From a virus: a DNA stretch of 22,284 nucleotides. Both the position numbers and the translations under genes were made by a program. The stretch covers positions 1 through 22,284 of IMG/VR virus record IMGVR_UViG_3300025138_000413, one strand, 5' to 3'. Below the pieces are notes generated by a model that saw only the letters and a program-made list of their open reading frames with translations, did no database searches and was not told the DNA's origin. Positions 1,394 to 15,179 of the stretch are shown one piece after another (the stretch's first letter is position 1; every line of letters begins with the position of its first letter).

Positions 1394-2584
1394 ATGGCAA
1401 ATTTGTTCCAACGGATTTTTAAGCGTGGCGGGTATCAAGTAGCTTACACTGGCTATCCGTCTTTTGCTTCACACTTGCGCGGCATCTCAACAAAGAGCGG
1501 CGCATACATCGACACAGAGACAGCACTCGGATTGACTACCGTTTACGCTTGTGTTAGTCGCATCGCGTCAACCATTGCACAGCTGCACTTGGATATAATG
1601 ACGCGGAACGAAGACGGTGTTATAAAAGCAACAGGCCATGTAGCGCAAGACCTAATCAGTCAAGAACCCGAGCCGGGATATACTGCCTTTGATTTTTGGG
1701 AGACATACATTAGTAACGTCCTTATTTATGGCAAGGCTTATGCAATTATTAAGCGTCTACCGAATGGCGATCCGTATGAACTTTGCTTAGTCAACCCAAA
1801 GAGCGTAAAGCAAAAGATGGTTGATAGCGATTTAGTATATGACATAAAAGATCATGGCATCTACTTTCATGCTGATATGCTTATCACTTGCAACTTGTAC
1901 GGGCAAAGTCCTATTGAGTTGCATCGTGAGATGTTAGGACTAGCCAAGGCAGCGCAAGACTTTGCGGCAGAGTTCTTTGGTAGCAGCGGAAACATGACGG
2001 GCATACTGTCAAGCAATGAGCCGCTGAAGAAAGAGCAGATTGATATTATCAAAGACAGCTGGAACAATAGTGGCGACCAGCTAGGCACTAAGCTTTTACC
2101 GTTTGGCTTTAGCTACAATCGTATTGCGGTAGATCCTGAGAACGCAAGCTTAACAGAGCAGCGCGATTTTATGAACCAAGAGATTTGCAGAATCTTTGGC
2201 GTGCCGCCTTCTATGGTCGGTGTGCAGTCAAACGTTACATACAGCAACACGGAGCAGCAAGCCATTCAGTTTGCAAAGTATACTATCGTTCCTTGGACGC
2301 GCAGGCTAGAGCAGGAAATGAATTGCAAGCTGTTAGCTCCTGACGAACGGCCTACACACTTTACACGCTTTGACTTGAGCGACCTATTGCGAGGCGATAG
2401 CGTCAGCCGTGCGCAGTACTATGACACTTTGATAAAGGCGGGGGTAATTAGTATCAATGAAGCAAGGGCCGCAGAAGATTTAAACGCAGTCGATGGCGGT
2501 TCAGTCCATACTGTGCAAGTCAATCAGATTGCGCTAAACAGCCTAGAAGATTACAGCAAAAAAATTAGCAGCGATGGAGAATAA
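1394..2584 (+). CDS. Portal protein, HK97 family
   Basis: Forms the dodecameric ring at one capsid vertex through which DNA enters and leaves, and to which the terminase and the gp6-like adaptor bind. At 396 aa it has the normal length for the HK97 portal family (Phage_portal, PF04860). Diagnostic segments are the N-terminal TVYACVSRIAS helix, VLIYGKAYAII, and the C-terminal clip/stem region with EICRIFGVPPSMVG followed by TYSNTEQQAIQFAKYTIVPW. The start follows the terminase stop by 11 bp, and the 3' end overlaps the protease-capsid gene by 11 bp, suggesting translational coupling. Confidence 0.95.
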   Translation: MANLFQRIFKRGGYQVAYTGYPSFASHLRGISTKSGAYIDTETALGLTTVYACVSRIASTIAQLHLDIMTRNEDGVIKATGHVAQDLISQEPEPGYTAFDFWETYISNVLIYGKAYAIIKRLPNGDPYELCLVNPKSVKQKMVDSDLVYDIKDHGIYFHADMLITCNLYGQSPIELHREMLGLAKAAQDFAAEFFGSSGNMTGILSSNEPLKKEQIDIIKDSWNNSGDQLGTKLLPFGFSYNRIAVDPENASLTEQRDFMNQEICRIFGVPPSMVGVQSNVTYSNTEQQAIQFAKYTIVPWTRRLEQEMNCKLLAPDERPTHFTRFDLSDLLRGDSVSRAQYYDTLIKAGVISINEARAAEDLNAVDGGSVHTVQVNQIALNSLEDYSKKISSDGE

Positions 2585-4592
2585 AAAAGATGACAGATTA
2601 AATGAACTGCGCAAGCAGTACGGCGAGAACGTAGAACTACGAACAAGCGAAGTGCGAGCCGCTGGCGATGACGCTTTAGTTATCGAAGGATATGCAGCAA
2701 ACTTTGAACAGGTCACAGACCTTGGGTATTTTAAAGAACAGATTGCACGCGGTGCATTCGATGAGGTTATGGAAGATGACGTGCGACTGTTGCTGAACCA
2801 TGACGGCGCACCGATGGCACGAACAAAGAACGGCACGTTGGAGTTGAGCGTTGACGAGAGCGGCCTAAAGTATCGCGCGGCATTGGCAGACACGCAAGAC
2901 GGGCGCGATCTTTACAAACTCATTAAGCGCGGTGATATATCACAAAGCTCTTTCGCGTTTACCATACAAGATCAAGAGTGGAACGAATCGCGCACCATGC
3001 GCACGGTTACAAAGATGGCGCGACTGCTAGACGTGTCGCCTGTAACTTATCCAGCGTACCCAACGACTACAGTGGCAGCACGCAACATGGCCGAGGTCAA
3101 GCCTGAGCCAGTACAAGAAACTGAAACAAAATCAGAGGTAAGAAACGAAAAGAAGGAAGTTGTTACCTTTGCTACAATAGCGGAACGACCCGCGAAACTT
3201 TTAAAGATTATGAATTTTAGAAACTCAACAGACGCGGCCCGCTATATCAGCCAACTAGAGGCAAAGCTTGCTAACGTCAACGACCTCGCAGAAACCGAGG
3301 AAAGGGCGCTCACTTCTGAGGAATTGGAAGAGACGCAAGATATTCACTCAAAGCTCGAAGCCGCTGAACAGCAGCGCGACGCATTGTCAAAAAACGAAGC
3401 ACGCCTGAAGCGCCTTGCCGTTGCAGCCGATGCGGTTGTACGCAGCGACAAGGAAGTCATTAAGGCCACAGCACAGTTTGATTTGGGCAAGGCTTTGCGC
3501 GAAGCAGCGCAGGGCGGTGTAACAGGATTGGAGAAGGAAATTGCACAGGAGGCACGCAGCGAGGCATCTGCTTTGGGCTTAGGCTTGCGCGGTGACTTTG
3601 CTATCCCTCAGTCAATGCTAAACGAAGCACGTAACGTGTACGGTGTTGATGCTGGTGCGGCTGGTGTAAATGACGCAGTGACAACAGTAGCCACCGAGGT
3701 AACTGCTTTGGTTGGCGCTTTGCGATCTAACTCTTTGCTTGCTGCTACAGGAGCAACACAGCTAAATGGTTTTGTTGGAGACATTAAAATGCCTTCACTT
3801 CCAACGGATGCGGCAGAAGAGCCAGCTGAAGCGGCAGCAGTTACAGGCAATACGGGTGCAATGGGTTCACAGACTCTTAGCCCTCAGCGTATCGCCCAGC
3901 AAATGATTGTAACGAAGGAAGCAATTAACCAAACAAACGGCAACATGGCCGAGGTAATTGCTACTGACTTCGGAAGGTCTATTGCAAACGTACAGGACAA
4001 GATTGCTTTGCTTGCCGTTCACGGAATCGGTGGCGCTACTGCTTTGGCAGGAGGCACGGGTACAGTTGTTAAGGGTACTATGGTGGATACGAATGACTTG
4101 GAAAAAACAGCAGCCGTTGATTTGCGAAACTTGTGGAGCGAGATTACAGCAAACGGAGCAGAGAACAACACGCAGTTCGTAATGCATCCAACTGCTATGG
4201 CTGAGTTGATGGGATTGGCAAACGTTGCAAGTGTTAGCTCATTAATTGAAAATGGGCAAATGTTTGGCTATAACATCCTAACAAGCGGTTCTGTTCCTTC
4301 AATTAACGCGGGTGCGGTTTACGCTTCACAGCTAATTGACGGCGGTGCTGACGTTGCACTAGGAGCAGCTACAGGATGGGACGCTTTGCGATTCTGTTAC
4401 TATGGTGACTGGTCAGATATGTTCTATGCTAACTGGGGCGGCCTCGACGTAACTGTTGATCCGTTCTCAGGCATTAGCGCTGGAACAGTCAAGATTGTCG
4501 TAGACACTTTCTTTGATGCTAAGGTGCGACGAGCAGGATCAATTGGAGCGTTGCCATTCGCAGCCGCTAAGATTATCGGTGCTGACGCTTAA
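2574..4592 (+). CDS. Fused prohead protease, scaffold and major capsid protein
   Basis: A single 672-aa polypeptide covering what HK97 makes as two proteins. Residues about 20-170 match the S78 prohead protease fold: VIEGYAANF, LLLNHD with the probable catalytic His76, and ISQSSFAF with the probable catalytic Ser126, then VSPVTYPAYP. Residues about 215-290 are charged and predicted coiled coil, like the HK97 delta (scaffold) domain. From about residue 300 onward the sequence is an HK97-fold capsid protein, with segments such as LGLRGDFAIPQ and WGGLDVTVDPFSG near the C terminus. Protease-capsid fusions are known in some phages but are a minority arrangement. Met213 (nt 3210) would make a conventional delta-domain start, so a second, capsid-only product is possible. 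A terminator follows directly. Confidence 0.93.
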   Translation: MENKKDDRLNELRKQYGENVELRTSEVRAAGDDALVIEGYAANFEQVTDLGYFKEQIARGAFDEVMEDDVRLLLNHDGAPMARTKNGTLELSVDESGLKYRAALADTQDGRDLYKLIKRGDISQSSFAFTIQDQEWNESRTMRTVTKMARLLDVSPVTYPAYPTTTVAARNMAEVKPEPVQETETKSEVRNEKKEVVTFATIAERPAKLLKIMNFRNSTDAARYISQLEAKLANVNDLAETEERALTSEELEETQDIHSKLEAAEQQRDALSKNEARLKRLAVAADAVVRSDKEVIKATAQFDLGKALREAAQGGVTGLEKEIAQEARSEASALGLGLRGDFAIPQSMLNEARNVYGVDAGAAGVNDAVTTVATEVTALVGALRSNSLLAATGATQLNGFVGDIKMPSLPTDAAEEPAEAAAVTGNTGAMGSQTLSPQRIAQQMIVTKEAINQTNGNMAEVIATDFGRSIANVQDKIALLAVHGIGGATALAGGTGTVVKGTMVDTNDLEKTAAVDLRNLWSEITANGAENNTQFVMHPTAMAELMGLANVASVSSLIENGQMFGYNILTSGSVPSINAGAVYASQLIDGGADVALGAATGWDALRFCYYGDWSDMFYANWGGLDVTVDPFSGISAGTVKIVVDTFFDAKVRRAGSIGALPFAAAKIIGADA

Positions 4593-4659: not shown

Positions 4660-5232
4660 ATGTACTATACCCTAGAAATTACAGGCACGGCATCTGAGTC
4701 TAGCATTGTAAGCACGGCAGACCTCAAGACCTTTTTACGTGTTGATCACAGTGACGAAGACACTTTAATCGAAGCGCTGCGAAGCGCCGCCATTGAATAC
4801 GTGCAGAATTATTGCAACCTGCAACTCGGTGACTTGCCTGCTGTCATGTACTTAGATAATTTCTATGGCACGTGGGAGATACCCATCGGGCCTGTTGCTT
4901 CTATTATCAGCATCACATACAACCCAACGGCAAGCACGACTAGCACCTTGCCAACCAATCAATACTTTGCCGACCTCAAGCGAAAGCCTGCACGCATTAC
5001 AACCGTGTCACCGCCTAGCGTTTACGAATACATCAGCAACGGCGTGCAAGTTAATATGACTTTAGGCTATGCCGAGGGTTCTATTCCTGACGGGTTACTG
5101 CACGCGGTCAAGTTATTGGTGGCGCACTATTATGAAAACCGCAATATTGTAGTAGTGGGCACGAATAGCAGCGAAGTGCCGAACCTCATTCACAGTTTAC
5201 TCAATCCGTATCGCGTAATTTCTGACCGATGA
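4660..5232 (+). CDS. Head-tail connector, HK97 gp6-like adaptor
   Basis: Predicted to form the ring under the portal that begins the head-tail connector. This 190-aa protein shows the family pattern of Phage_connect_1/DUF-type gp6 proteins: an N-terminal helix pair starting with STADLKTFLRVD, and the SAAIEYVQNYCN helix. A beta-rich middle containing the WEIPIGPVASI segment follows, and a C-terminal helix (HAVKLLVAHYYENR) leads into the typical LLNPYR ending. The start is the first ATG after the terminator. The gene ends in an ATGA overlap with the next gene. Confidence 0.85.
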   Translation: MYYTLEITGTASESSIVSTADLKTFLRVDHSDEDTLIEALRSAAIEYVQNYCNLQLGDLPAVMYLDNFYGTWEIPIGPVASIISITYNPTASTTSTLPTNQYFADLKRKPARITTVSPPSVYEYISNGVQVNMTLGYAEGSIPDGLLHAVKLLVAHYYENRNIVVVGTNSSEVPNLIHSLLNPYRVISDR

Positions 5233-5561
5233 GAATAGGACAAAGCGACAGAAGGATAACAATACAACGTTACACGACTAGCACCAACACATACGGCGAG
5301 CGCGTGCAAAGTTATAGCACGCTGATAACCGTTTGGGCAGAACTGATGAAAAACGGCATCGGCATGACCGAGCGCATTGTAACAGATCAGGATATGCCTG
5401 TGCAACGTGTAAAGTTTAAGATACGAAGCAGCGCCGCGAGCCGTGGCGTTAAGGCCGATGACCGCGTACTTTATGATTCTAAGTATTACAACATTCAAGG
5501 CATCGAAGGAATAGGCCGCGATGACCAGCTTGTTTTGCTTTGTCAAATCTCAGGGACGTAA
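5229..5561 (+). CDS. Head closure protein, SPP1 gp16-like
   Basis: Predicted head-tail joining/closure protein (Phage_H_T_join family, PF05521) that seals the connector after packaging. The 110-aa length is normal. The signature is IGQSDRRITIQRY at the N terminus, then VWAELMKNG, a QRVKFKIR strand and the ILYDSKYYNIQGIEG-like segment. It sits between the gp6-like and gp10-like genes, the standard order. It starts in an ATGA overlap with the upstream gene and ends in a TAATG overlap with the downstream one. Confidence 0.88.
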   Translation: MRIGQSDRRITIQRYTTSTNTYGERVQSYSTLITVWAELMKNGIGMTERIVTDQDMPVQRVKFKIRSSAASRGVKADDRVLYDSKYYNIQGIEGIGRDDQLVLLCQISGT

Positions 5562-6079
5562 TGGCGCAAGGATCATTACAGCAAAAAGGCGGTGCAGTTG
5601 GCTTTGAAGGCATAGGCGCAGATATAAAACCGCTGCTTAAACAGTTTGAGCAACTACGTAAGAAGGTCAACGATCCAAACGTACAGAAACGAATACACCG
5701 CGCCGTAGGTAAATTGTACAGAGACGAAATGCTTCAAAATATCAAAGATGCAAAGCAAGTAATTAGAGTGCGCAGAGGCGGCAAAAAAGGCGGGCCTACA
5801 ATCCCCATCGGAACGCTAAGAAGGTCAATAAAAGTGTGGCAAATAGATAAGCAGCACAGCACTTTTTGGGTTGGCCCTAAAGTAGGCAAGCGACAGCCGG
5901 AGAATGCTGACGGTTGGTTTGCAAATATTGTCGAAGGCGGTGACCAAAAATTTGGAGGCAATAAACAAAAGGGCGTTTTTGAAAGGTCAATTAGAGCGGT
6001 TAGAGCTGAGGCATTTAGAGTAATGAGGAAAAAATATGACTTTCAGATTAGAAAGGTTGCACGTAAAAAGAATAAGTGA
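5561..6079 (+). CDS. HK97 gp10-like head-tail / tail completion protein
   Basis: A 172-aa protein of the HK97-gp10 family, which acts at the head-tail or tail-completion interface. Visible features are an amphipathic N-terminal helix (PLLKQFEQLRKKV), PIGTLRRSIKVW, FWVGPKVGKR and WFANIVEGGDQKFGG, followed by a basic C-terminal helix. I chose the ATG at 5561, which overlaps the previous stop as TAATG. An ATG at 5540 would extend the overlap by seven codons and is less likely. The basic C terminus (KVARKKNK) is common in this family. Confidence 0.85.
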   Translation: MAQGSLQQKGGAVGFEGIGADIKPLLKQFEQLRKKVNDPNVQKRIHRAVGKLYRDEMLQNIKDAKQVIRVRRGGKKGGPTIPIGTLRRSIKVWQIDKQHSTFWVGPKVGKRQPENADGWFANIVEGGDQKFGGNKQKGVFERSIRAVRAEAFRVMRKKYDFQIRKVARKKNK

Positions 6080-8391
6080 TGAACGTAGGTAAAGCAGTAT
6101 ATGGTATTCTGAGCAGCACAAGTGCTGTGACGGATATAGTCAGCACAAATATATTCCCTGAGATTGCAGAGCAAGAAACAGCCACGCCGTTTATTGTTTA
6201 CCAATTGCAGGGCGTTGCACCTGAAGACACGCACGACGGGCCGTCGAAGTTGGATGAGGTGCGCATGGAAATCATTTGCTTTTCTGACAGCTATAACGGT
6301 GCAGCCGACTTAGCCGACAAAGTGCGAGGTGCATTGGATCGCGTCAGCGGCACATACAACGGTGTCAACGTCGAGTCTGTACAGTTCAACAACGTTGACA
6401 TAGAGATTGAATATGACCCGCGCCGTTACTCACAGGTCACGACATATACCTTTCGCATAAAGCGCGATAACATAACCATTGCAGCAGGCACGCCAGTAAC
6501 AGGCGCAAAGCTAGGTGATCTATCGGACGTTGATGTTGCAGGCGTTAGTGATGGTCAGTTCATTAAGTACGTAGCAGGGGAATGGCAAGCGGCTGATAGT
6601 ACGGGCGGCGTTACAACGTTAGCAGCTTTGACTGATGTAAACCTTACAGGCTTAGGCAGCAAAGACGTAATAAATTACAACAGCCTAACGGGCAAATGGG
6701 AGCCTGTTGACTTTTTGAATGTGCTGTACACCAATTTAAAAACAGGCGTTAGCACTACAATCAACGATGGCGCAAATACTAACAGCGCTTTAGAGTTAGG
6801 CGCAACAACTGCAAAACTTAAGACGGGCATAAGCGAAATACTTATAACAGAAACCAGTCCGGGCGATATTGATTTTGTAGTGGCAACAGACGGCAGCGGC
6901 GCGACTGCATACACTGCGCTAAATATTGACGGATCAACATCAGCCAACGAAGCTATTTTGAATATACCTGTTGGCACGCAGCTGCATATTAAGAGCGCCA
7001 CGCATTATGCTTACTTGCGATACTCAGGCGGTGCTAATGCCTCGTTAAGTTTACCAACAAGCTCAGGCACGCTAGCAAGGACAACCGACATTGCACTAGA
7101 CTCAGCAGTAGCAGCCAACACGGCAAAGATTAGTTATACCGATGCCAGTGCAGTAGCTGCAAACACTGCAAAAAATACTTACCCGTCAGCAGATGCAACA
7201 AAGTTGGCAGGTATTGAAACAAGCGCAGACGTAACAGACGCGACAAACGTAGCAGCGGCAGGCGCATTAATGGCGGCAAGCGCACAGCTTACAGGTGACC
7301 TTGACACGCAAGCCAACGAGATAAAGACCACGACAGCCAACGGCAATATTATTGTAGCGCCTAAAGGCACGGGCGTGCTAGAAGTCAAAGGCGACACCAA
7401 TAGCGCAGCCATAATTTTAAACTGCGAAGCAAACACGCACGGCGTTACTATACAGTCGCCAGCTCATTCGGCTGGTGCAACCTATACCTTGACATTGCCA
7501 ACAAGCGCAGGGTCAAACGGCCAAGCGTTAACAACTAACGGCTCGGGCGTTCTTTCGTTTGCAGATGTAAGCAACAACGCGGGCACAGTGACCAGCGTTG
7601 CAACTGGCACAGGCTTAAGCGGTGGGACAATTACGGGAAGCGGTACGATTGCCCTTGCTGACACAGCGGTAACATCGGCTGCATACACGAACGCTGATAT
7701 AACAGTAGACGCGCAAGGACGTATCACAGCGGCAGCAAACGGAAGCGCTGGAGGTGTCACGGCTGTGAATAGCTTAACGGGCGGCTTGACAATTGCGGCA
7801 GGTGCAAACGTAACTATATCTGACAACGGCAGCGATACAATTACAATTGCGAGCAGCGGAGGCGGCGGCGGTGGATTGACAGCGGTAACTGGTACAGCAC
7901 CAATTACAAGTAGCGGAGGGAATACACCTGACATTTCAATCACGGCAGCGACAACAAGCGCAGCAGGTTCAATGAGCAGTGCAGATAAAACCAAGCTCAA
8001 TAACATAACCACCAACTACGCAACGAACGCGCTTAACACGGGGCAAAATATTTTGATGACTGCGACTATATCCGTAGCAGATGACAAGATTATTGATGTA
8101 ATGGGTGATGCGTTAGCCGCAAGAGATAACGCCAATGCAAAAAAACTAATTGGATTTCACACTGGAAGCAATGAAGTTGTATTGCAAGGGATGGTAGATG
8201 CAGGCGCTGCAATTAGCGGATCGGCTGCGGGCGCACCTCTTTGGCTTGGCGCATCGGGTACATTTAGCGCGACAGCACCAACAACATCAGACGAATACTC
8301 AAGGGTTGTCGGTTACTATATTGGCGCGATTGGTTCAGCTTATGCCGTTTACTTCGACCCATCGAAAGATTGGGTGCAAATAGATTCATAA
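6079..8391 (+). CDS. Tail terminator (DUF3168-like) fused to a long fibre-like region
   Basis: Residues 1-130 match DUF3168/SPP1 gp17-like tail-terminator proteins in length and pattern: GKAVYGILSS, ATPFIVYQLQG, MEIICFSDSYNGAADLADKVR and TYTFRIKR. They would form the ring capping the tail tube. The frame continues without a stop for about 640 residues that look like a trimeric fibre. Two copies of an LSDV-type fibre repeat lie at residues about 145-173 and 181-211. They are followed by beta-prone Ala/Thr/Gly/Asn-rich repeats, AVAANTAK segments, LTLPTSAG, a poly-Gly linker near 597-602, and a compact C-terminal end (AYAVYFDPSKDWVQID). Start at 6079 (TGATG overlap); the GTG at 6076 is less likely. 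The fusion would place fibres at the neck. Each half is recognisable; its joint role is inferred. Confidence 0.82.
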   Translation: MNVGKAVYGILSSTSAVTDIVSTNIFPEIAEQETATPFIVYQLQGVAPEDTHDGPSKLDEVRMEIICFSDSYNGAADLADKVRGALDRVSGTYNGVNVESVQFNNVDIEIEYDPRRYSQVTTYTFRIKRDNITIAAGTPVTGAKLGDLSDVDVAGVSDGQFIKYVAGEWQAADSTGGVTTLAALTDVNLTGLGSKDVINYNSLTGKWEPVDFLNVLYTNLKTGVSTTINDGANTNSALELGATTAKLKTGISEILITETSPGDIDFVVATDGSGATAYTALNIDGSTSANEAILNIPVGTQLHIKSATHYAYLRYSGGANASLSLPTSSGTLARTTDIALDSAVAANTAKISYTDASAVAANTAKNTYPSADATKLAGIETSADVTDATNVAAAGALMAASAQLTGDLDTQANEIKTTTANGNIIVAPKGTGVLEVKGDTNSAAIILNCEANTHGVTIQSPAHSAGATYTLTLPTSAGSNGQALTTNGSGVLSFADVSNNAGTVTSVATGTGLSGGTITGSGTIALADTAVTSAAYTNADITVDAQGRITAAANGSAGGVTAVNSLTGGLTIAAGANVTISDNGSDTITIASSGGGGGGLTAVTGTAPITSSGGNTPDISITAATTSAAGSMSSADKTKLNNITTNYATNALNTGQNILMTATISVADDKIIDVMGDALAARDNANAKKLIGFHTGSNEVVLQGMVDAGAAISGSAAGAPLWLGASGTFSATAPTTSDEYSRVVGYYIGAIGSAYAVYFDPSKDWVQIDS

Positions 8392-8392
8392 T

Positions 8393-9187
8393 ATGGGAGA
8401 AATATCAGGAGTCCCCACAGCGGACATTAATAACGTCGATGGGTTTTTTACCACGCAGGGCGGTGGCGGTACAGCAAGCACTACTCCGACCCTAAGCACG
8501 ATGTCGGATATTTATGGAGCGGTTCAAAGTGTAACCATTACTAACTACGCTTCATACACGCAGCCAACGGTAAATGCTTCTGTATTTATTGGAGAAACTG
8601 AAATTGTCAGCAATGCGAATGTGACGGACACGAATGGCGTTTTAACGTGGACTGATACAAACGCCAGCACTTCGACAAGAACCGTAAAAGTGCGGGTGCA
8701 GGAGTTCGGTGATTTCGTACAATCCGCAGAGGTAACAGGCACTTATGATAAACTCTCGGCAACTTTCCGATATTTCAAATGCGTTGGAGTTGATTCGTCA
8801 GGCAACGCCAGCAGCTTACACATGGGGATAAGGGACTGGAGATATACAAGCAGCGGCACAGATTACCCTAGCGACATGACAGCCGACAACGCACCAAGTC
8901 CTTTTGTGGCAAGTGCGGGCCATACGTTCAGTAGTTATTCACCTTACAAAGCTTTTGACTCATCAACCTCAACGTGGTGGTGGTCACTTACAACCTCAAC
9001 CGCAAACAATTATTTAATTATTGACATGGGTGCAAGCTATACAATGAGCAGCGGCACTATTCGATTTTATAGCGGTTCGAGTATTCGATACGTCACCATT
9101 AGCGGAAGCACGGACGGCACAAACTATACAGTGATCAACGACACTTTACAGATTAATTTAACGAACGCAGACATGAATATAATCTAA
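8393..9187 (+). CDS. Adhesin-like structural protein with F5/8 type C domain
   Basis: A 264-aa protein beginning one base after the fibre fusion. The N terminus (ISGVPTADINNVDGF) resembles the short leader of Bacteroidota phage appendage proteins. Residues about 30-115 form an Ig-like beta domain. Residues about 120-255 resemble a discoidin/F5-8 type C carbohydrate-binding domain: YKAFDSSTSTWWWS, then a LIIDMG strand, TIRFYSG, and VTISGSTDGTNYTVI. The likely role is binding host surface glycan. Its position between tail terminator and tail tube, rather than in the tail-tip module, suggests a neck-located appendage or decoration protein. Family-level confidence is good; location on the virion is inferred. 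Confidence 0.72.
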   Translation: MGEISGVPTADINNVDGFFTTQGGGGTASTTPTLSTMSDIYGAVQSVTITNYASYTQPTVNASVFIGETEIVSNANVTDTNGVLTWTDTNASTSTRTVKVRVQEFGDFVQSAEVTGTYDKLSATFRYFKCVGVDSSGNASSLHMGIRDWRYTSSGTDYPSDMTADNAPSPFVASAGHTFSSYSPYKAFDSSTSTWWWSLTTSTANNYLIIDMGASYTMSSGTIRFYSGSSIRYVTISGSTDGTNYTVINDTLQINLTNADMNII

Positions 9188-10571: not shown

Positions 10572-12577
10572 ATGAATTAATTGTAACGATAGGGGCGCAG
10601 ACCCGTTTATTTGATAAAGCGCTTGGTGATTCCATGCGGAAAATGCAGAGCTTTGGTAAAAGCACGAAGCGTCTAGGCAAGTCAATGACTATGGGTTTGA
10701 CCGCACCAATTGCGGCGCTTGGCTTTACAGCGGTTAAAGCATTTGACGAACAAGCCAAAGCCATTGCACAAGTTGATGCAGGTTTAAAATCAACTGGCAA
10801 TTTAGTTGGCTTTACTTCCAAGCAGTTGCAGCAGATGAGCGCTGACCTGCAAACCAAAACCATATTTGGAGATGAGGAGATACTAAAAGATGCAACCTCG
10901 CAGCTGCTGACGTTTACGAACATTGCTGGCGATCAGTTTACACGCACGCAATCAGTTGCTTTAGATCTTGCCACGCGATTAGATGGCGATCTAAAAAGCG
11001 CATCTATTCAATTGGGCAAGGCATTAAATGATCCGATTGCAAACTTGAGCGCGTTAAGCCGTTCGGGTATCCAGTTTAGCGAAGACCAAAAGCAGGTTAT
11101 TAAAAGCCTGACGGAGAGCGGCAGACTAGCTGAGGCGCAGACCGTAATACTGGACGAGCTAGAAAAGCAATACGGAGGTAGTGCAGAGGCAGCAGCAAAG
11201 GCAGGCACGGGTGGACTCAAGCAGTTGGCTAATTCCTTTGGTGACTTGCAGGAAGAGTTTGGCAAAATCATAATGGAGTTTTTGCCGCCTGTTATTGACG
11301 GTCTTAAGAATATGCTGGCCGCATTTCAAAACCTCAGCCCGCAGGTTAAGAGGTTCATGGTTATCGGTGCAGGTATCGCGGCGGCACTTGGTCCGTTGCT
11401 GGTCATACTGCCGAGCATCATACAGGGCTTCATGGCTTTACTATCTCCTGTTGGGTTAGTCATTGCCGCCGTGGTCGGTTTAGGTATTGCGATTGTAACC
11501 TTTGCCGATGAGATAGCGCCGTATATCACCGACGTGATCAATTACTTTATAACGCTTTACAATGAGTCCAGCCTTTTGCGTGGCATCATTGGCGGGATAA
11601 AGGGCACGGTGCAGGTGGTGTTTGATTTCTTTCTGTTCGCGGTTGATAGTGTCATTGGCGCGTTCAAAGATTTAGGTACAATCATCGGCGCGGTAATGCG
11701 TGGCGACTTCAGCGCAATACCTGAATTAGTTGGCAACGCATTCAGCAACGCGGCGGATCGCATGGCTACGTTTGGCGAAAAGGCAGCCGAGGACTTTACA
11801 ACGGCAGTCAACACAGAGCTAGAACGTGAGCCGTTCAGCTTAATAAGTGAGGGCACAGTGGCGGAAACTATTAAAAGCATGGGCGGCTTGTTGGATATGT
11901 TTAACAACATGACCAGCGGCGGCGGCGGTGCAGGTGCTGCTGTAACACCAACAGAAAGCACAGACGTTGCAGTAGGCCCAAGCCCGCAGCTAGTGAATCA
12001 AAGCAGCACAGCCGTCAGCGAGTTAGCGGAGAACCTAAAGGCAGGACGCAAAGAGTTAAGCATGATGGTCGATATGGGGCCAGCAATTGAAGGCGCTTTT
12101 GCAGGTATCGGCATGGCAATCGGTGGACTGATTGCGGGCACGATGCAGATGAGCGATATATTCTCGCAAGCAGTTCTAGGATTGGCCAGCTTGCTCATTG
12201 ATTTAGGCCAGCAGTTTATTGCGGCGGGTATAGCGGCGAGCACTTTTTTCATATCCCTTACTACTAACCCATTGGCAGCCGTGGCGGCTGGTGTCGCAAT
12301 GGTTGCGGCAGGTGCAATAATTCAAGGCTTAAGTCAACGCATGGGTTCGACGCCGCCAGCACTTGCACAGGGTGGCTTGGCTTTTGGCCCTACGATGGCA
12401 ATGGTAGGAGATAACCAAAATGCTGGGGTTGATCCTGAGGTAATCGCACCATTGAGCAAATTGCAGGGCATGATGGGAGGGGCAAGCGTACAAGTGACAG
12501 GCAAGATTTCAGGCCGTGATATACTGCTTACAAGTGAGCGCAATGCAATTGACCGAAACCGAGTAAGAGGATTCTAA
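10559..12577 (+). CDS. Tape measure protein
   Basis: Sets tail length and helps deliver DNA through the cell envelope. The 672-aa product begins with a helical region (DKALGDSMRKMQSFG) and GKSMTMGLTAPIAALG, common in tape measures. A stretch similar to the TP901 tape-measure core (LNDPIANLSALSRSGIQFS) follows. Hydrophobic segments lie at about residues 266-289 and 296-315, with more in 515-530 and 570-590. A Gly-rich linker is near 455-460. The C terminus has LAQGGLAFGPTMAMVGD and VDPEVIAPLSKL, a conserved ending of phage tape measures. At roughly 0.15 nm per residue (established rule), a tail of about 100 nm is expected. Confidence 0.92.
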   Translation: MAKLNELIVTIGAQTRLFDKALGDSMRKMQSFGKSTKRLGKSMTMGLTAPIAALGFTAVKAFDEQAKAIAQVDAGLKSTGNLVGFTSKQLQQMSADLQTKTIFGDEEILKDATSQLLTFTNIAGDQFTRTQSVALDLATRLDGDLKSASIQLGKALNDPIANLSALSRSGIQFSEDQKQVIKSLTESGRLAEAQTVILDELEKQYGGSAEAAAKAGTGGLKQLANSFGDLQEEFGKIIMEFLPPVIDGLKNMLAAFQNLSPQVKRFMVIGAGIAAALGPLLVILPSIIQGFMALLSPVGLVIAAVVGLGIAIVTFADEIAPYITDVINYFITLYNESSLLRGIIGGIKGTVQVVFDFFLFAVDSVIGAFKDLGTIIGAVMRGDFSAIPELVGNAFSNAADRMATFGEKAAEDFTTAVNTELEREPFSLISEGTVAETIKSMGGLLDMFNNMTSGGGGAGAAVTPTESTDVAVGPSPQLVNQSSTAVSELAENLKAGRKELSMMVDMGPAIEGAFAGIGMAIGGLIAGTMQMSDIFSQAVLGLASLLIDLGQQFIAAGIAASTFFISLTTNPLAAVAAGVAMVAAGAIIQGLSQRMGSTPPALAQGGLAFGPTMAMVGDNQNAGVDPEVIAPLSKLQGMMGGASVQVTGKISGRDILLTSERNAIDRNRVRGF

Positions 12578-14976
12578 TGGCAGACCCAATACGTTTATTT
12601 GCTGAGTTTACAGACCAGCTTGGCACGGACTACAAACTAAACATACACCAAGATGGATACGGTGGCAGCGCTACCGAGTTCAACCTAGGATCAGATGGCT
12701 TTGTACTACGCTACAGCGGTGACAATGAAAACCGTATGCAACCAATCATAGGCAGCGAGGTAACGTTTACGCTTACGGAAACGGTTGCACAAGATACGGC
12801 AATGCTGACGGCCTTAGCCACAAGCGAGGATGCTGATTTTAAGGTAAGCATATTTAAAGACCCTGACGGCGCTAACACTTTGTTTTGGACAGGCGTGCTA
12901 TTGCATGAACAGGTAGAGCTACAAGATGAGGCGTATCCTATTCAGAATACCATGAATGCGGTAGATGAATTAGGCGATTTGAAGAACGTACTTTATAACA
13001 ATGCAGGCAGCGCATATACTGGACGTGAAACCATTGCCGCGCATTTAGTCAAGGCTTTGAATAAAACACGTGCATTGCACGTCTATGGCAATACAGATGT
13101 ATTCCTTAAGTATGCAAACGACTTTAAACCTACGACATTTAGCAGCGCAAACGCATTGACAGAGTTAGAGGTAAATCATGCGGCTTTTTACAACGTTGAC
13201 GAGGCTGGTTTTGTTAAGTACATGACAGCCTATGATGTCTTGACAGATATAGCTACAACGTTTAACGCACGGATCTTTTTTGCTGAGGGTTATTTTTGGT
13301 TTGTTCCAGTTGGCGCAGTTAAAAACAATGTGACTATAAACGTACACACTGTGACAAAGGCCGGAACTGTCAGCGGATCAACAAGCGCGGTTAATACGAG
13401 GCTGACAACGGGCAGCGATATTATTAAGCTACGAGGCGGCACTACTAGCTTTTTGCCACCTTTAAACATGGTGCAACGTACTTGGCGAACGGATGCCAAC
13501 GTTCCTTTGATTGGCCCTGAAACGCAATTTTTAAATGCCTCAGGCCAGCAGACAGCATTAGGTGCAAATATTACTGACAACAATTTAGCCTATGATAATG
13601 GCACGCTCTTTCGGTTTCAGTTTAGATACACTCACAGTTTTGACGGCGATGGGTCAAGTACAGGCGCAGATCAGCACGCAAGGTTAGTCCTAAAGTTGCA
13701 AATTAAGGTCGGCAGTTTGTACTATAATAACGCTGTGACCTTTGGCCCAACAACAATGACCTTTGGCAATGCTGAATCGACTTACAGCGTTGACCAAATG
13801 AATTTTAGCGCACCAGCGTGGTCATCAAGTGCTGGGTATTTTTACTTCGCTGTCACTCCATTGCCTTCGTACTTAAATAAGAACAATGGATTATTTTACA
13901 ATCTAACGTTTACACCGCAAAGCTATGCGAGCCTTGCACTATACAATCAACCTGTTATAATTGACTTGCTGCCAATAACAAGCGCACAGACAGGCGCACT
14001 TATAACTGTAAACGTCGAAGGTTACGACGTAGATGGCAACGTAATAACGGACGTAACTGGTTCAAATGCTGACGGCAAGCTTGACAATTTTACAGTGCAA
14101 GTTTTAAACGGTGGTTTGACTAATGGCGACAGGGTTGTATATGAAGCTAACACATCAGATGCAAATCAGGAATCACTAATTCAGGACGAGGTTGTAATTG
14201 GATCAAGTCAATTTAATGACGTCAGAAACATTTACGAAAATAACAGTTCACCGAGTCAACCAATTGACAGCTTCGCGAGCTTTGCAAATAGTGGCGTCAA
14301 CTTTGCCATTCATAAGCTAGGAGTAAAAGAAGTTTTAGCAGGTCAAAACTTTAGCACTAAAGTCAACCGAGGCACAGTTTATAAAAGATTCGTCAGTCCA
14401 TTAAATACAATGCTTTTCGGATCGCGCGACTTTTTACCGTTTGAAACTTCATTCAGTGCAGAAGCAGTACAAACAGAATGCGAATCGTTTTTTTTAACCA
14501 GCAGCGATACAAATGTAAGCGTGCCTGACGGTCAAGTTTTTGACGATCACACGCCAGTAGATGAAACGGAGCCTATTTATAATATCCGAAATGCCTTTGT
14601 TCCTACCGATGGAGATATTCCGCCAAACATATTGCAGAGATTTTTACAGCAACCGGTAAGGAGTATAGCGCAGCGCAGTACACTCACTGGAACGGTTTTA
14701 ACTACTGATCAATTGATTTTTAATACTTGGACAGGTGGCAACGGAACAGCTACCTTGACGCTTCCAACGGTAGCAGGTAACGAGGGGCGTATTTTACGCT
14801 TCCAAACTGATGGAACTATTGCTGCAAATAAGATTATTGCTATAACGCCTAACGGATCTGACTCTAGTGTAACTATCGACGGCGCAAGCACTTACAATTT
14901 AAATAGAAGTTATGACGGCGTTACTATCTTGTGCCATGCAAGTAACTGGTACATAATACAGAAAAAAGAGAAGTGA
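12577..14976 (+). CDS. Large distal tail / tail-tip protein with fibre-like C terminus
   Basis: A 799-aa product directly after the tape measure (TAATG overlap), where distal tail, hub and receptor-binding proteins are encoded. Residues about 1-160 follow a pattern seen in tail-tip proteins of Bacteroidota siphoviruses: RLFAEFTDQLGTDYKLNI, a YSGDNENRMQPIIGSEVTF strand, and FWTGVLLHEQVE. The middle contains beta-rich domains. From about residue 690 a separate C-terminal domain appears, with LTLPTVAGNEGRILRF, SSVTIDGASTYNL and WYIIQKKEK, typical of fibre heads or receptor-binding tips. It probably combines hub and receptor-binding roles, since no other large tail gene follows. The exact function is inferred from position. 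Confidence 0.7.
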   Translation: MADPIRLFAEFTDQLGTDYKLNIHQDGYGGSATEFNLGSDGFVLRYSGDNENRMQPIIGSEVTFTLTETVAQDTAMLTALATSEDADFKVSIFKDPDGANTLFWTGVLLHEQVELQDEAYPIQNTMNAVDELGDLKNVLYNNAGSAYTGRETIAAHLVKALNKTRALHVYGNTDVFLKYANDFKPTTFSSANALTELEVNHAAFYNVDEAGFVKYMTAYDVLTDIATTFNARIFFAEGYFWFVPVGAVKNNVTINVHTVTKAGTVSGSTSAVNTRLTTGSDIIKLRGGTTSFLPPLNMVQRTWRTDANVPLIGPETQFLNASGQQTALGANITDNNLAYDNGTLFRFQFRYTHSFDGDGSSTGADQHARLVLKLQIKVGSLYYNNAVTFGPTTMTFGNAESTYSVDQMNFSAPAWSSSAGYFYFAVTPLPSYLNKNNGLFYNLTFTPQSYASLALYNQPVIIDLLPITSAQTGALITVNVEGYDVDGNVITDVTGSNADGKLDNFTVQVLNGGLTNGDRVVYEANTSDANQESLIQDEVVIGSSQFNDVRNIYENNSSPSQPIDSFASFANSGVNFAIHKLGVKEVLAGQNFSTKVNRGTVYKRFVSPLNTMLFGSRDFLPFETSFSAEAVQTECESFFLTSSDTNVSVPDGQVFDDHTPVDETEPIYNIRNAFVPTDGDIPPNILQRFLQQPVRSIAQRSTLTGTVLTTDQLIFNTWTGGNGTATLTLPTVAGNEGRILRFQTDGTIAANKIIAITPNGSDSSVTIDGASTYNLNRSYDGVTILCHASNWYIIQKKEK

Positions 14977-15179
14977 TGGATTGGGAGATATTAGCGGCGG
15001 TATTACCTGTAGTTGCTGGCTTGGTTGGCGTGTGGGTAAATTTAAATAGCACAGTTGCACGGTTAAAGAGCCGCGTGATCCAGCTAGAACTTGACAGCAA
15101 CGAAATAAAGAGCGACATGAAAGAATTGTTGGCCGCGGTGCATAAGATTGAACTCATGATTGCTAAATTGCAGAAATGA
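14976..15179 (+). CDS. Small membrane protein, one TM plus coiled coil (lysis candidate)
   Basis: A 67-aa protein with an N-terminal hydrophobic segment (residues about 5-24, ILAAVLPVVAGLVGVWVNL) and a C-terminal heptad-like helix (VARLKSRVIQLELDSNEIK and onward). It overlaps the endolysin gene as ATGA. The composition resembles small holin-associated or XhlA-like proteins, but with TM and coil in reversed order. An anti-holin, spanin-like or holin role is possible. The start is the ATG at 14976 in a TGATG overlap, not the GTG at 14973. Confidence 0.72.
   Translation: MDWEILAAVLPVVAGLVGVWVNLNSTVARLKSRVIQLELDSNEIKSDMKELLAAVHKIELMIAKLQK

Follow-up and report, generated by a model that had tools for sequence, protein, structure and literature searches.

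Introduction

In the cases that we found, known neck fibres are separate proteins carried on a dedicated anchor, and the way in which such fibres are attached in siphophages is largely unsettled. In lambda and T5 the terminator ring is a hexamer that closes the tail tube below the stopper, and phage fibres of the present kind are usually trimers. The lactococcal neck passage structure (NPS) is composed of a near-constant ring domain of about 130 residues, a shaft and carbohydrate-binding modules that can be exchanged; one such module bound weakly to host cells (PMC6669499). The neck fibres of the lactococcal siphophage TP901-1 are non-essential (PMC4493119). In Anabaena phage A-1(L), a neck fibre that bears a carbohydrate-binding module showed no binding to the host (PMC10966104). 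Here we analyzed a linear IMG/VR virus record of 22,284 bases (the whole stretch is called the window below), in which a predicted tail terminator continues in frame into a long fibre.

Results

Genome setting

The window starts within the gene for the terminase large subunit, which is cut by its left end, followed by the portal, a protease/capsid fusion, the adaptor, the head closure protein (stopper), a gp10-like protein, ORF 6079-8391, a lectin-like gene, the tail tube, two small ORFs in the position of tail chaperones, the tape measure, a tail-tip protein (12577-14976), a peptidase M15 and early genes. From the adaptor to the tape measure, this order is that of TP901-1, in which ORF41 is the tail terminator (PMC4493119). 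The open ends of the window are covered by a circularly permuted close relative (L012, contig G016). Since it supplies the ~0.7 kb between the window ends, namely a small ORF in the position of the terminase small subunit and the N-terminus of the large subunit, the whole genome is about 23 kb. Neither a second terminator nor a further long-fibre gene was seen in this genome (window plus the stretch read in L012).

One ORF of 672 aa (2574-4592) apparently joins the head maturation protease and the major capsid protein. A gene of ~70 aa with a hydrophobic start follows the tail-tip gene (14973-15179). A similar-looking gene lies directly after the terminator in two relatives with unfused terminators (L074, at about 5409-5620, and L075) and also after the fusion in locus L069; the product could be holin-like. 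Bacterial genome contigs scanned for prophage relatives, as a pointer to the host, gave only two weak partial matches, in Magnetococcales.

Terminator domain and fibre in one reading frame

ORF 6079-8391 on the + strand is intact from the ATG at 6079, with GTG 6076 as an alternative start. Its 770 codons encode a protein with a computed mass of 77.4 kDa and a pI of 4.3. An earlier note, written from the letters of this DNA, had taken residues 1-130 as a DUF3168 tail terminator and the remainder as a fibre-like continuation, rich in Ala, Thr and Gly and with two LSDV-type repeats, and both parts of this reading were borne out (Table 1).

A Pfam search matched residues 5-127 to PF11367 (Tail_completion_gp17 / DUF3168) with 52.7 bits and E 6e-14, against a curated cut-off of 24.5 bits, and residues 1-132 matched PHROG 347 'tail terminator' (E 9e-17). 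PF11367 was found at one place only in the window. The terminator gene comes after the gp10-like gene and before the tail tube gene, from which the fibre and one more gene separate it. The PDB sequence search by the terminator profile gave no match, and matches came from fold comparison alone. The AlphaFold model of the full chain was poor (pLDDT 40), with only moderate confidence at the N-terminus. With this model, the Foldseek matches were almost all tail terminators. They included the Douge connector protein (E 3.7e-4) and, further, Bxb1, NF5, T5 p142, T4 gp15, SPP1 gp17, a gene transfer agent and lambda gpU, all matched by the N-terminus. The nearest relatives of the terminator in the annotated collection (L082 4995-5396; L083 4980-5369) came from Bacteroides phages and from a human faecal phage; in each case the terminator was unfused and the tail tube gene came directly next.

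Residues 131-770 contain 16% Ala, 14% Thr and 12% Gly. For the module at residues 403-497, tblastn found up to 57-68% identity to proteins annotated as tail fibres in pelagiphages and cyanophages, the match covering residues 403-496. Homology to known fibres, together with the modular exchange of tips described below, marks this part of the chain as a fibre, a putative receptor-binding protein.

Table 1. Features of the fused gene and of the genes following its tip class
Feature	Position	Strand	Basis
Tail terminator domain (PF11367 / DUF3168), residues 1-130	6079..6468	+	Pfam, PHROG 347, Foldseek, gene position
Join, conserved linker RDxxIAxGTPVTGA, without stop or in-frame start	6469..6510	+	pN/pS, start-codon scan
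Two LSDV-type fibre repeats, starts at residues 145 and 181	6511..6723	+	Sequence; PHROG 13853 match at residues 138-165
Fibre shaft region, AANTAK repeats at residues 345 and 360	6724..7284	+	Sequence; varies among relatives
Fibre module common with pelagiphage/cyanophage tail fibres, residues 403-497	7285..7569	+	tblastn
Distal fibre and tip, YFxPSxDW class; compact tip about 8040-8388	7570..8388	+	Same tip on other anchors; tip-class counts
Downstream gene, MGEISGVPTADINNVDGFF... start and F5/8 type C (discoidin-like) domain	8393..9187	+	Pfam PF00754
Genes with ISGVPTADINNVDGFF-type N-terminal motif	window 8393-9187; L155 4950-6146; L063 6928-7878; L148 3838-4632		

Conservation of the join

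The join contained no stop codon, and no in-frame ATG, GTG or TTG occurred from nt 6439 to TTG 6628. Re-initiation at the join was thus ruled out, the nearest in-frame start being well away. Among 56 distinct haplotypes, the in-frame pN/pS was 0.16 for the terminator, 0.20 for residues 126-145 and 0.29 for residues 130-165, and the junction gave values of 1.2 and 2.8 in the other two frames. Purifying selection acts in frame across the join.

Loci were fetched by four queries, namely the terminator domain, the neighbouring head-closure gene (which is independent of the fibre), the tip and a divergent terminator. After removal of duplicates, 154 contigs with the window-type terminator were obtained, the window itself counted. 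They comprised 98 complete fused ORFs and 42 fused ORFs running off the contig; another 7 contigs were unfused, 6 were cut by the contig end and 1 had a short extension. The same fusion, which the earlier note had proposed to look for in related phages, was therefore present in about 140 of the 154 IMG/VR contigs, from many metagenomes and including loci found via the head-closure gene alone, which excludes chance. In the 98 complete ORFs, 251-1091 residues (median 684.5) followed the domain. The frame was broken within the fibre in L114, L229 and L002, the latter two going on in another frame in a frameshift-like manner.

As a background, 398 bacterial genomes yielded about 110 PF11367 matches. 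The four longest open frames above the cut-off (339-449 aa) owed their length to upstream GC-rich sequence and had 3-12 residues after the domain. Since the longest frames extend only upstream, a long C-terminal extension is unusual for PF11367 in that bacterial sample.

Unfused relatives were also found at this locus. The neighbouring genes of L074 and L075 are closely related to those of the window (the L074 tail tube is 82% identical), and their terminator, which is 74% identical to that of the window, ends at residue 129. No fibre gene lies between terminator and tail tube in these two loci, only two very short genes. Loci L318-L322, with about 40% identity to the L155 terminator, are unfused too. 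Because the same terminator occurs without a fibre, the fibre extension can be regarded as an add-on to the terminator. Conservation, selection over the join, the occurrence of unfused relatives at this locus and the presence of the same fibre repertoire on another terminator-like anchor (see below) together strongly support, from sequence comparison, that the terminator-fibre fusion is genuine and not a lost boundary, in agreement with the earlier note, which had seen neither a stop nor a ribosome-binding-like break at the join.

Tip classes and their downstream genes

One terminator was found with at least four tip classes, as defined by C-terminal sequence motif. The tips of the 98 complete proteins included 73 LamG/ArabFuran-like lectins (for example L041, with PF09206 at E 2.8e-18 and PF13385), 16 of the YFxPSxD class of the window, 3 TGERQ and 1 Lcl_C (L069). 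The L069 gene (4155-5309) encodes the terminator and a short extension that ends in the Lcl_C (C-type-lectin-like) domain, with no long fibre.

With the window-type terminator, the LamG-type tip was followed by a gene of ~132 aa (YIIVLP...) in 76/76 cases, and the YFxPSxD tip by a gene starting with a xIxGVxxADIxxVxG-type motif in 16/16 cases; five rows in these counts were assigned from printed translations. Because each main tip class keeps its own downstream gene, the product of gene 8393-9187 is probably a tip partner or chaperone, as judged from its sequence context. The genes after YFxPSxD tips have a short common N-terminal motif (ISGVPTADINNVDGFF and looser forms), after which unrelated domains follow (F5/8C, RCC1-like propeller or LamG). 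This motif may serve as a tag by which adhesins dock on the fibre tip. The ~132-aa gene (MNGYIIVLP...; L226 8432-8836 and many other loci) was present after every LamG-type tip in both phage types, that is, also with the second anchor described below. It had no convincing Pfam or PHROG match, and its product is a possible fibre-tip chaperone.

PHROG 10356 (852 positions) matches the head-closure protein (window 5229-5558) at its start and the L041 LamG-type fibre further on, pointing to a possible stopper-lectin fusion in another phage. S-CBS4 gp59 and Gordonia Lucky10 gp27 were too short for such a fusion, and none was found in the loci searched.

A second anchor with the same cassette

The tip of the window recurred in L148 at 97% identity, together with a near-identical copy of the downstream gene, in another phage type. 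Window-type tips were also found in L149 and L150, which come from other metagenomes, again on this other phage type. The N-terminus of the second anchor (MITFNNIVERF...) had no Pfam model and no convincing PHROG match. From 263 matched relatives 80 were kept. Wherever a locus was read far enough, the second anchor was followed by the same repertoire of fibres, with apparent frameshifts as the only exceptions, and tips and partners were paired as with the first anchor, in 30/30 and 13/13 cases. PF11367 was absent from 15 second-anchor contigs, many of which are fragments.

The AlphaFold model of the second anchor had a pLDDT of 64.5 and a pTM of 0.64. Its best fold matches in the PDB were lambda gpU (E 1.3e-4), the terminators or neck structures of Mu (terminator), E217 (neck) and A-1(L) (neck/terminator), the collar of R2 pyocin and the stopper-terminator complex of R4C. 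The TM-scores were modest (0.3-0.5), and the terminator reading rests on the consistency of the hits rather than on precise superposition. The predicted structure matches a tail-terminator fold. No sequence similarity between the two anchors was detected by hhalign profile comparison, in which the alignments were shallow. The same tip and partner thus occur on a terminator-fold anchor that is unlike in sequence, which implies two or more separate fusion events or a transfer of the cassette from one terminator to another. Most simply, two lineages of terminators share one fibre cassette, through independent fusion or through recombination after a single fusion.

A 40-kb contig (G001, IMGVR_UViG_3300048115_000173; L324-L325) appears to combine two different phages, with the fibre cassette common to both as the point of joining, and is probably a chimeric assembly. 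On this contig (L226) the second anchor seemed to lie directly upstream of a window-type tail tube gene. This apparent synteny was dropped once both ends had been read and the contig had proved to be chimera-like.

In the viral structure library (BFVD), relatives of the second anchor were either stand-alone (~150-165 aa) or long (393-971 aa, some named collagen repeats), and positions 241-386 of PHROG 347 (394 positions) were matched by the L063 lectin gene. Therefore, such fusions probably sit unrecognised in databases. UniProt already holds long terminator-like proteins, which are uncharacterised.

Discussion

Proposed neck fibre

The best explanation overall, which we consider likely, is a single chain in which the terminator ring forms the base of a long adhesive neck fibre. 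It is very likely that the product of ORF 6079-8391 is translated and assembled as one piece. If so, the fused protein would very probably sit at the neck, because its anchor is a terminator. The fibre itself is probably a glycan-binding adhesin.

In the proposed mechanism, six copies would form the terminator ring, which would cap the tail tube, dock it to the head stopper and double as the fibre base. The C-terminal chains would exit from its outer face and trimerise, most likely giving two fibres per ring (two trimers per hexamer). By analogy with hexameric rings and trimeric fibres, two fibres appear more likely than six single-chain extensions, and the 'ring of fibres' envisaged in the earlier note is the weakest part of that reading. 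The lectin-like tips would bind surface glycans and help the first, reversible adsorption, the YFxPSxDW tip of the window acting with the F5/8C protein as partner or chaperone. The tail-tip protein would commit after this first adsorption and complete infection. Glycan binding at first contact is suggested by the lectin-like nature of the tips, by their turnover while the base stays constant and by the absence of another long-fibre gene. An accessory role is possible, because the A-1(L) neck fibre failed to bind its host and TP901-1 can do without neck fibres.

Other explanations of the fused gene were weighed. The fusion might be translated whole and cut near residue 130 in assembly, so that the ring bears no fibre and the freed fibre docks elsewhere (e.g., at the tail tip) or functions unattached. 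In favour of this, the two domains are cleanly delimited, relatives manage with an unfused terminator, and phage structural proteins are commonly processed. However, the linker is conserved under selection, and although a separate gene would be the simpler arrangement for two independently used parts, the fusion is kept in nearly all relatives and with the second anchor; we thus regard cleavage as unlikely. An adhesin role might also be lacking in a fibre that does sit at the neck and serves assembly or environmental sensing. Such roles are cited for T4 whiskers in PMC8265664, and the negative host-binding result for the A-1(L) fibre tip (PMC10966104) points the same way, but the fast swapping of lectin-like tips on a constant base suits host recognition better than assembly, which makes this explanation as improbable as cleavage.

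The terminator activity of the N-terminal domain is predicted, and this domain could be a co-opted paralogue that resembles a terminator while another protein terminates the tail. Against this, it is the sole PF11367 match in the window, it occupies the canonical position and an unfused relative stands at the same locus, so that a paralogue is very improbable. A TP901-1 ORF41 mutant with a stop at the start codon reportedly forms polytails. The joining of two genes by an assembly or sequencing artefact, for which the chimera-like contig G001 offers a precedent, is hardly credible here: recurrence of the fusion in so many contigs and metagenomes already refutes an artefact, and with selection crossing the join it also rules out a lost stop.

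With the adhesive neck fibre as the preferred explanation, a large group of marine phages probably makes a ring protein and a long fibre with a swapped sugar-binding-type tip in one piece. No description of a terminator-fibre fusion was found in the open-licence papers searched. Notable here are the use of an essential terminator as anchor, in one covalent chain with the fibre, and a cassette common to two terminator types. Because anchor and fibre are one covalent chain, on two terminators, attachment and stoichiometry are directly testable. Genes annotated by pipelines as no more than 'tail terminator' or 'hypothetical' can conceal host-contact modules, and the receptor-binding repertoires of marine phages may therefore be undercounted. 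The evolution of host range may involve the neck in addition to the tail tip. A broader view, which is possible but which we hold only tentatively, is that abundant small marine siphophages use the terminator ring as a general port to dock their main receptor-binding fibres, that cassettes of tip and partner move between sequence-unrelated terminators, that host range evolves at the neck and that the first grip is sideways, by the neck.

Comparison with known systems

The terminators lambda gpU, SPP1 gp17, T5 p142 and TP901-1 ORF41 (PF11367 / PHROG 347) share the N-terminal profile, fold and gene position with the window protein. They have about 130-160 residues and no fibre, while the proteins of the fused group continue for hundreds of residues after the domain. 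The tail fibres of pelagiphages and cyanophages (Skadi, HTVC and P-SCSP1 groups) contain the homologous middle module and are annotated as tail fibres; their records gave no match to the terminator domain.

The fibritin whiskers of T4 and the whiskers of alterophage R7M (PMC8265664) are likewise fibres at the head-tail interface. However, they are encoded by separate genes with no terminator fusion, and R7M ORF28 is a proposed candidate only (PMC8265664). Anabaena phage A-1(L) has trimeric-type neck fibres with a distal carbohydrate-binding module (PMC10966104), which resembles the arrangement proposed here. In A-1(L), the fibre proteins gp80-82 are separate and sit on the 15-mer neck ring gp5, whereas the terminator gp8 carries no fibre (PMC10966104).

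The lactococcal NPS (TP901-1 ORF51 and the 936-group; PMC6669499, PMC10747895) has, like the window fusion, a constant base, a long shaft and swappable carbohydrate-binding-type tips in several groups. Like the window fibre, it is present in some relatives and absent from others, and it is located at the neck, a position that for the window fibre is predicted from its anchor. As its anchor the NPS uses a BppU-like beta-sandwich, for which a place on the portal/adaptor has been proposed and which is encoded apart from the terminator (PMC10747895), whereas in the window the terminator itself is the anchor and the N-terminus is PF11367 rather than BppU-like. Since the anchor domains differ, the window fusion falls outside the NPS family. 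The lactococcal NPS is the closest working analogue of the proposed window neck fibre.
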